Positions 13,966 through 19,743 of a stretch of 36,986 bases of DNA are shown piece by piece. The notes under the pieces were generated by a model. That model saw only the letters and a list, made by a program, of their open reading frames with translations, had not been told where the DNA came from and ran no database searches. The position numbers were made by a program, and so were the translations under genes. Position 1 is the first letter of the stretch; every line of letters starts with the position of its first letter. The stretch lies in contig JAFGWC010000042.1 of assembly GCA_016937695.1 (NCBI GenBank), positions 1 to 36,986 of the forward strand. Reading direction: 5' to 3'. This DNA is from Bacteroidales bacterium. Lineage in GTDB: Bacteria > Bacteroidota > Bacteroidia > Bacteroidales > NBLH01.

Positions 13966-14682
13966 ATGAAAAAAATTATCATAATAATTATAATCTCTTT
14001 GTCTACCAATGTATTTGCTCAAAGAGAGCAACCTAAAAATTTACAAAATTTCGATAATAAATGGCTGCATTTTGGATTTACTGTTGGAACCAATATAATG
14101 GATTTTACAATTGTTAATGCTGATAATTTTTTTGATGAAACGGAAGTTAATTACATATATGGTATTGAAAATCAGCCAAGTGTGGGTTTCCATTTAGGTC
14201 CTGTTTCTAATTTAAGATTAGGCGAATATTTTGATTTACGTTTTTTGATTGATTTATCATTCGGTCAAAGAAATCTAACATATTATTTTGCTGATACTAC
14301 ATCTGGAACAAGAGAGCTTAGTTCCAAAACAATGAAAATTGCTTCCACTTTTATTGAATTTCCTTTACATATTAAATATAAATCTGTAAGAATTAATAAT
14401 TTCAGACCTTATTTAATTGCCGGATTAAATCCAAAATTAGATTTAGCTGCAAGAAAGAAAATAAAAGAAGAGGAAATGCCCAAAATTAGACTTAAAAATA
14501 TGGATTTATACTATGAGTTTGGGTTTGGTATTGATTTTTACTTGACATATTTTAAATTTTCTACTGAAATAAAATACGGCATTGGACTTTTTGATATAAT
14601 TGAGCCTGATAATACTCAGTTTACAAGCTCGATAGAAAGGATGAATTCAAGAATGCTTATGCTTTCTTTTCATTTTGAATAA
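13966..14682 (+). CDS. porT: PorT/SprT, type IX secretion system outer-membrane-associated protein
   Basis: A 238-residue secreted protein with an N-terminal signal peptide (M-K-K-I-I-I-I..., cleavage near V-F-A-Q) and a C-terminal region rich in beta strands, ending in a membrane-barrel-like aromatic stretch (S-F-H-F-E). The internal motifs G-F-H-L-G-P-V-S-N-L-R-L-G-E-Y, L-R-F, F-I-E-F-P-L-H-I-K-Y and R-P-Y-L-I-A-G match PorT of Porphyromonas and SprT of Flavobacterium, components needed for type IX secretion and gliding. The neighbour ubiE supports the call. No other T9SS gene and no protein with a recognisable T9SS C-terminal signal is in the window. It converges with the Crp/Fnr gene, 18 bp between stops. 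Confidence 0.85.
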   Translation: MKKIIIIIIISLSTNVFAQREQPKNLQNFDNKWLHFGFTVGTNIMDFTIVNADNFFDETEVNYIYGIENQPSVGFHLGPVSNLRLGEYFDLRFLIDLSFGQRNLTYYFADTTSGTRELSSKTMKIASTFIEFPLHIKYKSVRINNFRPYLIAGLNPKLDLAARKKIKEEEMPKIRLKNMDLYYEFGFGIDFYLTYFKFSTEIKYGIGLFDIIEPDNTQFTSSIERMNSRMLMLSFHFE

Positions 14683-14700: not shown

Positions 14701-15381
14701 TTATCCTATCTGATTAATTTCGATAAGTTTTTTCTTGTCAATTATAGTTATATTTTGAGCATTGCATTTAATTATTTTTTCAGATTGAAATTCTTTAAGA
14801 ATTCTAATTGCACCTTCTTTGCTCATTCCTGTAAAATCAGCAATTTCTTGTCTCGAAAGTAAAATATCAAATTTATCAGTTTTAAAAATATTATTTGAAA
14901 GATATAATAAAATATCTGCTATTCTTCCATGAGATTGCTTAACTGATAGATTAACAAGCTTTTGCATAAGTCTTACATCTTTCAAACTAATATCGCGAAT
15001 TATTTGTTCTGCAAAATCTGAATTGGCTCTAAATATTTCTTTAAATACATTAACATCTATAAAACATACTGTAGAATCTTTTAGTGCTGATAATGAGTAT
15101 ATATGTCTGCCATCAAGATAAATCCCGGGACCACCTATAAGGCTTGTAGGTTCCACAAGAGTAATTATTACATCTTTATTGTAATCAGTTTCTAAATATA
15201 TCTTAGCAAGTCCATCCGAAAATGATACTATATGAGAAGTTGGACTCCCTTGTTTAAAAATAATTTCACCAGCCTTAAATTTAGCGATATGCCTATTATT
15301 GTTAATCAGAACTAACTCTTCTTCTGTAAGAAGTTTAAAAGGTTCACATTGCTTTTTTGCAATTAACACACGATTTATCAT
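14701..15381 (-). CDS. Crp/Fnr family transcription regulator
   Basis: A 226-residue regulator: a cyclic-nucleotide-binding-like beta-roll at about 18-135, a dimer helix at about 118-150, and a winged helix-turn-helix from about 150, with L-S-R-Q-E-I-A-D-F-T-G at 175-185 and a recognition helix containing E189 and R193 (S-K-E-G-A-I-R). These two positions are those that contact TTGA/TCAA half-sites in the family, in agreement with the box at 15457. Only three cysteines are present (12, 106, 206), too few for an Fnr-type four-cysteine Fe-S site, so its signal is not obviously oxygen through a cluster. It is divergent from the hexaheme cytochrome gene and probably controls it, itself, or both. 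The family is firm; the ligand and targets are inferred. Confidence 0.93.
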   Translation of the reverse strand: MINRVLIAKKQCEPFKLLTEEELVLINNNRHIAKFKAGEIIFKQGSPTSHIVSFSDGLAKIYLETDYNKDVIITLVEPTSLIGGPGIYLDGRHIYSLSALKDSTVCFIDVNVFKEIFRANSDFAEQIIRDISLKDVRLMQKLVNLSVKQSHGRIADILLYLSNNIFKTDKFDILLSRQEIADFTGMSKEGAIRILKEFQSEKIIKCNAQNITIIDKKKLIEINQIG

Positions 15382-15495: not shown

Positions 15496-15529
15496 ATTTT
15501 AACAAAAATCAATTAAATTTTGTTAAAAT
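15496..15529. promoter_or_regulatory. 12-bp perfect inverted repeat, second operator candidate
   Basis: Arms 15496-15507 and 15518-15529 are exact reverse complements, ATTTTAACAAAA and its complement, separated by 10 nt. It stands between the Fnr-type box and the cytochrome gene, 119 bp before its ATG. It could be an operator for another regulator or a transcript hairpin; without a T-tract it is unlikely to be a terminator. Confidence 0.55.
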
Positions 15530-15647: not shown

Positions 15648-16748
15648 ATGAAAAGAATAATTTTTATTTTATATTTTGCTTGTTGTGCAACTTTCTTATT
15701 TGTATCTTGCGAAGGCCCAATGGGAGCTCTAGGAATAGATGGTGTTGATGGAGAAGATGGTGATGTTACTTGTCTTTCTTGCCATGCAGACGAAAAGATG
15801 CAAAGTGTGCAATTTCAGTTTGGAATGTCATCTCATTGTATAGGAGCAGTTGATGCGGAACGTGATGGTTGGGATGCAGGATGTGTTCAATGCCACACAA
15901 GCGAAGGATTTATTGATTATGCTACTAATGGAATGCCGGAAGCCGGACTTTCTACTCCTTCAGGTCCTTTTGAATGCAAAACATGTCATGGTTTACATTC
16001 AACATTTGATTCTACAGATTATGCATTAAGACTTACAGAACCTGTTGCATTTATATACTCTGAAGATTTTACAACGCCTGTTACTGCTGACTTTGGAACT
16101 AGTAATTTATGTGCAAACTGTCACCAGTCAAGAAGACCAGAACCAAATTTTGAAGTTCCAGGAACAACTTTTTATATTTCTAGTACTCATTATGGCCCAC
16201 ATCATGGATCTCATGTAAATGTTTTAGCTGGTGTTGGATTTGCTGAAATTGCAGGAACTGCTTCTTATCCAACGGCAGGTTCTGCTGTACATATGACACA
16301 AGCAAATTGTGCAAGCTGTCATATGTCAGATTTTAGTGTTAATGTAAATGCTGAAGGTGATGATGAAGGACAAGGTGGTCACTCTTTTAGACCAAATCTT
16401 GACGCATGTAATTCATGTCATGGTGTTGCTGAAACTGATTTTGATCATGGAGACTTCCAAACTGAAACTGAAGCTCAACTTCTTGAGTTAAGAGATTTAT
16501 TGGTTGCTCAAGGCGTTGTTGAACAAGCAATGGAAGATATTTGGGAAATAAACCAAACAACTGGCATAAACGAATTAGTAACATATGCAGGCGATTATCA
16601 TCCTGTAAAAGGAACATTTACAATGGTACAAGCTCAAGCTTTCTATAATTGGGTTGGACTTGAAGAAGATCGTAGTTTAGGTGCTCATAATCCGTTATAT
16701 GTAAAAGCATTATTAACAAATTCCATTGCTGCTTTAGGAGGAAAATAA
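15648..16748 (+). CDS. Hexaheme c-type cytochrome lipoprotein
   Basis: A 366-residue lipoprotein. The signal sequence ends in L-F-V-S-C, so lipidation is at C21. Directly after it, residues 23-39 form five to six Gly-X-Y triplets (G-P-M, G-A-L, G-I-D, G-V-D, G-E-D), a collagen-like spacer. Six CxxCH haem sites follow: C42-H46, C79-H83, C110-H114, C155-H159, C221-H225 and C254-H258. Several unpaired histidines (63, 117, 181, 185-186, 189, 215, 245, 267) could serve as distal ligands. Residues about 270-366 lack haem motifs and are helical. The likely role is electron transfer at the outer membrane. It is divergent from a Crp/Fnr gene and followed by a monoheme lipoprotein and a DUF5777 barrel. 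Redox partner and substrate are unknown. Confidence 0.9.
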   Translation: MKRIIFILYFACCATFLFVSCEGPMGALGIDGVDGEDGDVTCLSCHADEKMQSVQFQFGMSSHCIGAVDAERDGWDAGCVQCHTSEGFIDYATNGMPEAGLSTPSGPFECKTCHGLHSTFDSTDYALRLTEPVAFIYSEDFTTPVTADFGTSNLCANCHQSRRPEPNFEVPGTTFYISSTHYGPHHGSHVNVLAGVGFAEIAGTASYPTAGSAVHMTQANCASCHMSDFSVNVNAEGDDEGQGGHSFRPNLDACNSCHGVAETDFDHGDFQTETEAQLLELRDLLVAQGVVEQAMEDIWEINQTTGINELVTYAGDYHPVKGTFTMVQAQAFYNWVGLEEDRSLGAHNPLYVKALLTNSIAALGGK

Positions 16749-17073
16749 TATTAGTTATCTTATTAGGCATTGGGTAAATATTACTCTCTGCCTTTTATAT
16801 AAATAGATTAATTTAAAATCATCTGTTTAATTACAATATTGATTTGATGCAAAAATGAAGTAAAAATAGTGTATTCTAAATTCTAAAGAAGGAATAGTTT
16901 AGTTTTAAATAATAAAAGTTTATTGCGTTATATTGTTTTGATATACAGACGTATATGAAATTAATTTATTTTAAACATAATGCAAAATTACACCAGGATA
17001 CACTATGAAATAATAATTAAAAGGAATTTATTATGCATAATCAATTCTTAATTTAAACATAAATATAGAAAGT
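16749..17073 (+). other. 325-bp intergenic stretch inside the cytochrome cluster
   Basis: AT-rich DNA with no convincing gene. A short imperfect hairpin, AGGCA...TGCCT with T-rich 3' side (about 16764-16797), might be a weak terminator just after the hexaheme gene. A 17-codon frame starting at the ATG at 16955 is too short to support. The second gene of the cluster may therefore have its own promoter, but no TAnnTTTG motif stands out. Confidence 0.4.
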
Positions 17074-17451
17074 ATGGATATAAAAAATGGAATTTTGAAA
17101 GGTGTATTGTTTTGTACATTATGTTTTTCAGTTTTTTTTGCTTCATGTGAATGGGTTACAGTTGAACCCGTTGAGGTAATTATACCGGATAAACCAATCA
17201 GTTTTGCAAGTGATATACAACCAATATTTACAAGTAAATGTGATCAATGTCATCCATCTCAAGCTGGATTAGATCTTACTGATGGTAATGCTTGGGCTAG
17301 TATTAATGATGGGCGCCTTAACTTAACTGCACCTAATCAAAGTTTAATTTATACTAAGCCAGATCCAAATGGAACTCATCCAGAAAAGTATTCAGCTACT
17401 GAATCATTACTTGTATTAACATGGATAGAAGAAGGAGCTCTTGATAATTAA
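17074..17451 (+). CDS. Small monoheme c-type cytochrome lipoprotein
   Basis: A 125-residue protein with a lipoprotein signal ending F-F-A-S-C (lipidation near C25). The mature part has one haem site, C-D-Q-C-H at about 55-59, within the pattern F-A-S-D-I-Q-P-I-F-T-S-K-C, the form seen in the small 'planctomycete-type' cytochrome c domain; the end (L-L-V-L-T-W-I-E-E-G-A-L-D-N) also fits that domain. It lies between the hexaheme lipoprotein and the DUF5777 barrel, all on the same strand, 98 bp before the barrel's chosen ATG. An electron shuttle on the periplasmic or outer face is likely. The haem site and lipidation are seen; the role is inferred. Confidence 0.88.
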   Translation: MDIKNGILKGVLFCTLCFSVFFASCEWVTVEPVEVIIPDKPISFASDIQPIFTSKCDQCHPSQAGLDLTDGNAWASINDGRLNLTAPNQSLIYTKPDPNGTHPEKYSATESLLVLTWIEEGALDN

Positions 17452-17549
17452 ATTTTTTGGAATGAAGACTATTTGACTTCAATTTTTAAAATGAATAATT
17501 GACAAATAGCTTAATCAAGTTTCTGAATAATAATTTAAAACATATTTTG

Positions 17550-18473
17550 ATGAAAATTATGGAAATAAAAAATATAATAAGGCCTTTATCACTTTGTATA
17601 TGTATGGTGTTAATGGTAGGATTTACTTATGCTCAGACTGATACAATAGTTAATGTTGTTGATAAAGATGGGATGCTTCCGTTAAGAAGACCATGGAATT
17701 CAAGTATGATTATTGATAACCAAACAACTGAAGGTCCTAGTGCTAAGCAGTTTCATTTTTCTATTCATCACCGTTTTGGTAAAATTAAAGAAATGGGTGA
17801 TATATTTGGAATTTATGCAAGTTCGAATATTAGATTAGGCTTAAATTATGGTATAACTGAAGATATTTCTATTGGATTTGGAACTGAGAAATATAAAAAA
17901 ATGCAAGAGTTTCAGGGAAAATACAAAATTATCTCACAAACGCGAAATGGTAAAATCCCAGTGTCTGTTTCTTATTTTGGTAATATAGTTATAGATGGAA
18001 GAGATAAAGAAATTTATGGAGTAAACTATAATTTTAAAAACAGACTTTCTTTTTTCAATCAGGTTATTGTGTCAAGAAAATTTACAGATGAACTTAGTGT
18101 TCAATTAGCTGGTAGTTTTTCACATTTTAATGCAGTTACTGATTTGGTTCAAAATTCTCAAGTCGATACAATAGGAAAATGGAAAAATGATTACATAGGA
18201 GCAATGTTTGGAGCACGTTACAGATTTCATAAAAACATATCTGCTATTGCTGAGTATTGTCAACCTTTCGGGTTAAAAAAAGCTTGGGATGGTCAAAGTA
18301 AACCTCTGCCGAATATCGGTTTGGGTGTAGAATTTGGCACAAGCACGCATGCTTTTCAGGTATTTGCTGCAAATTACGAAGGAATTATTGCTCAAGAAAA
18401 TTATAGTCACAATACGAATGATTTGGCTTTTGAAGGATGGAGGTTTGGATTTAATATTACAGTCCGGTTTTAA
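17550..18473 (+). CDS. DUF5777-family outer-membrane beta-barrel protein
   Basis: About 307 residues from the ATG at 17550 (another ATG at 17559; an upstream ATG at 17499 would add 17 residues before the signal peptide and is less likely). The signal peptide ends near G-F-T-Y-A-Q. The mature protein begins with a plug-like segment containing L-P-L-R-R-P-W-N-S-S, followed by alternating strands with H-R-F-G-K-I-K, S-N-I-R-L-G-L-N-Y-G-I-T and a C-terminal strand ending V-R-F, all typical of DUF5777 barrels. Such genes are often near YceI-like or cytochrome genes. Placed after two haem lipoproteins, it could form the barrel of a porin-cytochrome conduit. The barrel is well supported; the conduit role is inference. 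Confidence 0.82.
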   Translation: MKIMEIKNIIRPLSLCICMVLMVGFTYAQTDTIVNVVDKDGMLPLRRPWNSSMIIDNQTTEGPSAKQFHFSIHHRFGKIKEMGDIFGIYASSNIRLGLNYGITEDISIGFGTEKYKKMQEFQGKYKIISQTRNGKIPVSVSYFGNIVIDGRDKEIYGVNYNFKNRLSFFNQVIVSRKFTDELSVQLAGSFSHFNAVTDLVQNSQVDTIGKWKNDYIGAMFGARYRFHKNISAIAEYCQPFGLKKAWDGQSKPLPNIGLGVEFGTSTHAFQVFAANYEGIIAQENYSHNTNDLAFEGWRFGFNITVRF

Positions 18474-18833: not shown

Positions 18834-19603
18834 GTAAATAATGATGATTTTCCTAAAAACCCAAAAACTAAATTGGGAAAAATATTAGTTACAGGAGCAA
18901 CAGGTTACATTGGAGAGTGTAAAAATTGGTTATTATTTAATTCATTCCTTACGCCTTGGCAGAAATAATTTTAGTTCAGTGGAAATAGAATCAGCAATTA
19001 ATTTTAGAAAAGCTGCTGAAAAAGGAAAAAGTTAGTAGAATAATATATCTTGAGGCACTTGGTGATATACAGCAGATGAAAAAATTATCTAACCATTTAA
19101 AAAGCAGATTAAAAGTTTCTGAGGAACTTTCAAAAGGTACTGTTTCTTTAACGATATCAATGGATGCAGTTATTATTGAATCTGTAAGAGCTTCTTTTGA
19201 AATTCTAAAAAAATTGGTGAAAAATTCGCCTATTCTTCTATTACCTAAATGGTCAAGGACTCTTTGTCAGCCTAATAGTATACGTGATGTTATCAAATAC
19301 CTTATTGGTGTGATGGTGGAGCATGATGAACTAAAAATAAAATATATGATATAGGCGCTGGGATATCCGGGAGGAGTATTTTCAATGTATGTACGTTCAC
19401 GCATTATTGTTCAAAATAAAACTAAACAAGCTCAATTATTTCTTTTAGTAGGGTTTAATTTCTATGGACATAAAGAATGGTCGAAAAAGAAAATTATAAA
19501 TAAGCTTTGGGAGTTTATTCATAACAGAGTTACTTCTAATACAATGAATAGGTTTAAGCAATTATGCGAATATAAATATGGAAAATTTATTGAGGAAGTA
19601 TAA
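18834..19603 (+). pseudogene. Decayed NAD(P)-binding SDR (YbjT/DUF2867-like) pseudogene
   Basis: Remains of one protein lie in several frames. At 18882-18920 the frame reads I-L-V-T-G-A-T-G-Y-I-G, the NAD(P) loop of an extended SDR. It then jumps, with about 50 codons missing, to Y-Y-L-I-H-S-L at 18931 in another frame, running to a stop at 19033. One base further the third frame resumes K-V-S-R-I-I-Y-L-E-A-L-G-D, then S-N-H-L-K-S-R-L-K-V, up to TAG 19352; there K-N-K-I-Y-D-I-G can be read in yet another frame. A 72-codon open tail at 19385-19603 (W-E-F-I-H-N-R-V-T region) follows in phase with the middle fragment and may be the C-terminal domain or a second remnant. At least two frameshifts plus a deletion make the gene non-functional. 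The family name is from recognised motifs. Confidence 0.8.
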
Positions 19604-19743
19604 AAAACACATTTATAGAGAATCAAACAAAAAATATAAACAAGACATTTTTTAACAAAAATCCAATATTAAATCTTTTATATAAATATAATTAGTATTT
19701 ATAATTTACTAAGTATATTCGCATTTGAATAAAAAATTTAATA

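Follow-up and report, generated by a model that had tools for sequence, protein, structure and literature searches.

The window, that is, the whole stretch of 36,986 nucleotides that was analysed, contains the genes for two c-type cytochrome lipoproteins, here called HEX and MONO, followed on the same strand by the gene for a DUF5777 outer-membrane barrel. A row of two lipidated cytochromes and a DUF5777 barrel was what the preliminary description had reported, and all three genes were found as follows, together with two features upstream of them.

14701 to 15381, minus strand: CRP/FNR-family regulator, divergent from HEX
15496 to 15529, no strand assigned: inverted repeat of 17+17 nt, 88% complementary, between the regulator gene and HEX
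15648 to 16748, plus strand: HEX, hexahaem c-type cytochrome lipoprotein of 366 aa, with six CXXCH motifs and a lipobox
15708 to 15767, plus strand: lipobox cysteine of HEX at residue 21 (FVS/C), then a collagen-like G-X-Y stalk
15771 to 16421, plus strand: the six CXXCH haem motifs of HEX, at 15771, 15882, 15975, 16110, 16308 and 16407
17074 to 17451, plus strand: MONO, monohaem c-type cytochrome lipoprotein of 125 aa, with one CXXCH at 17239
17550 to 18473, plus strand: DUF5777 outer-membrane barrel, 307 aa from ATG 17550, 12 predicted strands

The genes are loosely spaced, with 325 bp between HEX and MONO and 98 bp between MONO and DUF5777, and in the window no inner-membrane module adjoins the trio. 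The lipobox of MONO (FAS/C) lies at residue 25. The DUF5777 frame as called begins at TTG 17499, and ATG 17550 is the likely start; read from this ATG, the protein has a signal peptide and a C-terminal F. It belongs to PF19089, with a score of 223 bits against a cut-off of 23.1 in a Pfam scan whose only other hit was a sub-cut-off match to Imm47, and PF19089 is found above its cut-off once in this genome.

The window copy of the CRP/FNR regulator is without an N-terminal cysteine cluster. The inverted repeat between it and HEX, with arms ATTTTAACAAAAATCAA/TTAAATTTTGTTAAAAT, is a possible operator. A PorT/SprT type IX secretion gene lies just upstream of the regulator, at 13966-14682. Downstream of DUF5777, at 18850-19610, are broken frames that look by eye like an NAD(P)-binding SDR-like protein (ILVTGATGYIGE and following) and are likely to be a pseudogene.

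Conservation of the genes in relatives

Eighty homologous loci were gathered with DUF5777 alone, using a seven-row subset of its alignment as the query; about five of them duplicate records of the seed set. The gene immediately before DUF5777 is MONO in 77 of the 80, and a divergent CRP/FNR regulator is present in 50. HEX is found in 52, and in 37 of the 47 loci that have at least 6 kb on both sides, although it lies immediately upstream in no more than roughly one locus in three and is elsewhere close by or shares the contig. HEX>MONO>DUF5777 as a strict order holds in 26 of 80. Adjacency of the three genes in relatives, by which the preliminary description was to be judged, is thus firm for MONO and DUF5777 and partial for HEX.

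A quinol-oxidising module, counted as either a heptahaem cytochrome with cytochrome b561 or an Fe-S protein with NrfD, is nearby in 71 of the 80 loci and in 44 of the 47 with full flanks. The neighbouring families, assigned with Pfam and NCBIfam, are cytochrome b561 (PF01292), NrfD (PF03916), DsrO-like Fe-S proteins, multihaem c3/c7 cytochromes and a NapC/NrfH-like protein; in one relative of the same genus (G006) the Fe-S/NrfD module is directly downstream of MONO-DUF5777. In the full clusters inspected, DUF5777 is the only obvious outer-membrane barrel amid many cytochromes. The features of HEX, MONO and DUF5777 are not due to chance. Since the trio recurs across many Bacteroidota beside quinol-oxidising genes, it is likely to form the part of an anaerobic electron-transfer chain that lies at the outer membrane.

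Two kinds of DUF5777 can be told apart, a division made by score and gene context and not by tree: against the type II profile (A5) a high group, which includes the window copy, scores at least 299 bits and a low group, type I, at most 212. Among 118 genomes of the order, the window's own genome being left out, HEX is present in 25 of the 27 that have a type II DUF5777 and in 3 of the other 91, while 88 have neither (Fisher p 4e-20, a value that overstates independence because the genomes are related). These genomes come mostly from different families, HEX is usually on the same contig as the type II gene, and only one of 18 type I-only genomes has HEX. The functional link between the genes, which had first been drawn from gene order only, can now also be drawn from this co-occurrence, the nearby quinol modules, the conserved synteny and the kinship of HEX with extracellular terminal reductases described below.

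Type I genes have monohaem lipoproteins and YceI as neighbours, or a Rieske protein in Emticicia, with a cytochrome neighbour in most of 22 loci. On the Emticicia oligotrophica plasmid pEMTOL02 (L185), the neighbours of DUF5777 are a Rieske 2Fe-2S protein, YceI and a c-type cytochrome protein, which suggests that partnership with small one-electron redox proteins is a general trait of the barrel. Partners vary from locus to locus, with a Rieske protein in place of MONO or with HEX absent, and the role of DUF5777 may accordingly be broader. A search of plasmids gave no HEX and no heptahaem cytochrome, and for DUF5777 only distant matches (24-28% identity) with YceI or cytochrome/Rieske neighbours. 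A literature search for DUF5777 found no papers.

The two cytochromes and a soluble acceptor

The lipobox cysteine and all six haem motifs of HEX are conserved in 42 of 42 aligned homologues. Besides the motif histidines, six more are conserved, five in all 42 sequences and one in 41, making twelve conserved ligand-type histidines; all six haems are therefore probably bis-His. The collagen-like G-X-Y repeats that follow the lipobox, six triplets in the window copy (15714-15767) and at least three in every homologue, might form a trimeric stalk. When a profile built from the 42 sequences was searched against solved structures, the best match was 6i5b (E 3e-16), followed by 6qvm (6e-12), NrfA (4e-11) and MtrC (7e-8). 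The 6qvm entry is a ‘multiheme cytochrome cf’, presumably from Carboxydothermus ferrireducens. HEX also scores barely above the cut-off of the MtrC/MtrF domain II/IV model PF22113 (31 bits against 30). The best match, 6i5b, is the structure of OcwA, a terminal reductase at the cell surface that has NrfA, c554 and MccA among its relatives (PMC6703420). Judged by these profile matches, HEX is distantly related to OcwA, NrfA and MtrC and falls within the NrfA/octahaem/c554 superfamily, and it is likely to be a terminal reductase.

MONO has its lipobox cysteine in 71 of 71 homologues and a haem motif, CXXCH or CX4CH, in all 71; some homologues have the CX4CH form or two haem motifs, and some of the copies that appear to have no haem are CX4CH variants. 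By eye, in a 15-row alignment, the expected distal-ligand position is His or Met throughout, and it is His in the window. Inspection by eye found no clear Bacteroidota surface-export signal in HEX or MONO, so both could face the periplasm.

An inward-facing HEX is part of one alternative to an extracellular role, the periplasmic respiration or detoxification of a small soluble acceptor such as a nitrogen, sulfur or metalloid oxyanion, with DUF5777 as the import pore, MONO as the donor and HEX as a reductase of the NrfA/octahaem type. The superfamily of HEX is consistent with this, as are a barrel sized like specific small-solute channels (see below) and the ability of OcwA itself to reduce nitrite and hydroxylamine (PMC6703420), but a distal His seems to be present at every haem of HEX, so that none is evidently open for catalysis, and Labilibaculum manganireducens reduces neither nitrate nor nitrite nor sulfate (PMC5760507). 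This alternative seems unlikely, if not markedly so. The narrower assignment of HEX as an NrfA-type nitrite reductase was considered separately: NrfA has five haems, one of them an open CXXCK catalytic haem, whereas the 42 HEX sequences have six CXXCH motifs and no CXXCK, which together with the six extra conserved histidines weakens it.

The predicted barrel and passage across the outer membrane

An AlphaFold2 model of the window DUF5777, made with 78 sequences, has twelve strands (pLDDT 88, pTM 0.81). When MONO-DUF5777 of a relative (L074), read through the stop codons, was modelled as well, twelve strands came out again, with a small helical MONO; this model has a pTM of 0.64, the helix linking its two parts is an artefact, and no interface could be read from it. 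The fold matches KdgM (Z 17, rmsd 2.0 over 166), NanC, FapF and COG4313, small porins or autotransporter barrels of equal size class, and a sequence search with DUF5777 gave no solved relative. By the textbook formula for barrel diameter, with assumed shear numbers, a 12-strand backbone would be ~23-24 angstrom across against ~47 for 26 strands, and the lumen left after side chains ~13-14 angstrom against ~37.

The idea of a classical porin-cytochrome conduit like MtrAB or Pcc, in which DUF5777 would sheathe a haem wire across the outer membrane, turns on this size. MtrB has 26 strands, which it needs to hold MtrA (PMC7198977), and even in Cyc2, with 16, the monohaem domain is believed to be no more than a plug on the periplasmic side, so that Fe(II) has to come into the pore (PMC8406198). 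Sheathing of a haem wire by a barrel predicted to have 12 strands and the size of KdgM or NanC is therefore unlikely. The preliminary description had suggested that the barrel could insulate such a wire and had named too narrow a barrel as the finding that would count against it; with twelve strands in both AlphaFold2 runs, the sheath was rejected on predicted size. Nor did the Pfam scan of DUF5777 give a match to PF11854 (MtrB_PioB), a family absent from this genome and above its cut-off in one of 119 genomes of the order. A classical conduit is thus very improbable, even though the conservation of a barrel together with two lipoprotein cytochromes, the distant relationship of HEX to MtrC and OcwA, and the position of DUF5777 as the sole obvious barrel in the full clusters inspected all speak for it. 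A Bacteroidetes MAG from an anode biofilm also has a similar, uncharacterised multihaem cluster with one barrel (PMC8258643), possibly this system.

A larger candidate conduit cluster, separate from the trio, is found elsewhere in the genome, on contig C101 (L179:12069-18442, L180:1-12127). It encodes a 25-haem cytochrome (729 aa), a 653-aa barrel-like protein without a Pfam match, a 7-haem fragment, a 6-haem-OmpA protein and NHL-repeat proteins, and adjoins a four-gene quinol module (Fe-S/NrfD/IG298/C1) and a cytochrome c assembly protein. This cluster fits classical conduits better than the trio does, the identity of its barrel being putative. The four-gene module is the one that lies beside MONO-DUF5777 in relatives, as might be expected if the trio fed a wide conduit of this kind and did not itself cross the membrane, but the 653-aa protein is present in only 6 of the 119 genomes and MtrB_PioB is nearly absent, so that most trio carriers have neither and this explanation is highly unlikely. 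On another contig, C22 (L181:8260-11255), an octahaem cytochrome (PF11783) precedes a cytochrome b561 that carries PAS domains.

If the barrel is too small for a haem wire, as predicted, electrons must be handed over in another way. The most economical mechanism would be one in which MONO and DUF5777 form a split Cyc2-like pair and HEX is the terminal reductase. Menaquinol would be oxidised at the inner membrane by the module that neighbours the trio in relatives, made up either of a heptahaem cytochrome and cytochrome b561 or of a DsrO-like Fe-S protein, NrfD, a small subunit and a class I cytochrome c. Periplasmic cytochromes would then hand the electrons to MONO, which would sit, lipid-anchored in the outer membrane, at the periplasmic opening of the narrow barrel, where its haem could be reached by a small redox-active solute entering the pore, whether a shuttle, a chelated metal or another soluble acceptor. 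MONO and DUF5777 would thereby follow the logic proposed for Cyc2, spread over two genes, and HEX, on its collagen-like stalk, would act as an OcwA-related terminal reductase. The computations show the gene content and its conservation, the lipoboxes, the conserved ligand-type histidines, the predicted size of the barrel, the co-occurrence and the distant homology; the direction of electron flow, the contact between MONO and the barrel, the side that HEX faces and the acceptor are what we infer here. That the trio is a redox module of the outer membrane and draws on menaquinol is very probable. The whole reading, of an outer-membrane end to a menaquinol-driven anaerobic c-type cytochrome chain with MONO docked at the barrel and HEX reducing the acceptor, is plausible and is put forward tentatively.

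A bolder form of the proposal would make MONO-DUF5777 a minimal redox gate of the outer membrane built from two genes, unrelated to Cyc2 but equivalent to it in split form, and run reductively. Together with HEX, this gate would let Bacteroidota such as L. manganireducens use extracellular Fe(III)/Mn(IV) or redox shuttles for respiration with no wide porin; in this form the proposal is distinctly doubtful. The authors who documented the reduction of Fe(III) and Mn(IV) oxides in L. manganireducens could not name the genes for it (PMC5760507). The locus of this species reads CRP-MONO-DUF5777-C1-heptahaem-cytochrome b, with HEX also in the genome, and because a known Fe(III)/Mn(IV) reducer carries the module, the idea can be tested. 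Labilibaculum and Marinifilum form one clade, and the tie of metal reduction to the module genes is putative. The findings bear on the route by which electrons leave Bacteroidota for extracellular acceptors: a defined conserved gene set can now be given, in cultured isolates, consisting of MONO-DUF5777, HEX, the quinol module and the CRP/FNR regulator, and the mechanism is narrowed by the predicted barrel, whose bore would not admit a haem wire.

Comparison with known electron-transfer systems

The systems closest to HEX are OcwA of Thermincola potens, OmhA of Carboxydothermus ferrireducens (PMC6703420, PMC7829351) and NrfA. HEX carries the NrfA-type C-terminal region and haem motifs, and no solved structure matches its profile better than OcwA, but it has six haems where OcwA has nine and NrfA five, and it differs from OcwA, OmhA and NrfA alike in being a lipoprotein with a collagen-like stalk. 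OcwA has two open haems, whereas HEX appears to be without an open catalytic haem.

With MtrCAB and Pcc the trio shares a lipoprotein multihaem cytochrome and an outer-membrane barrel in a chain fed by a quinol oxidase (PMC7198977). It differs in the absence of a long periplasm-spanning multihaem cytochrome and of MtrB homology, and in a barrel that is predicted to be far too narrow, with twelve strands against the 26 of MtrB.

The type I DUF5777 loci show the same barrel family beside small one-electron redox proteins, here YceI, a tRNA_anti-like protein, and monohaem lipoproteins or a Rieske protein. They differ in that HEX is present in just 1 of 18 type I-only genomes, YceI is often present and aerobes are included.

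The likeness to the Cyc2 of iron oxidisers lies in the pairing of a small monohaem c cytochrome with a narrow outer-membrane barrel, such that a soluble species would have to reach the haem (PMC8406198). Cyc2 is, however, a fusion of a monohaem cytochrome to a 16-strand porin, whereas MONO and DUF5777 are two genes, in the window as in the pairs listed from other loci, for a lipidated cytochrome and a barrel of 12 predicted strands from the Bacteroidota family PF19089. In contrast to Cyc2, MONO-DUF5777 is linked to quinol oxidation, and hence probably works in the reductive direction.
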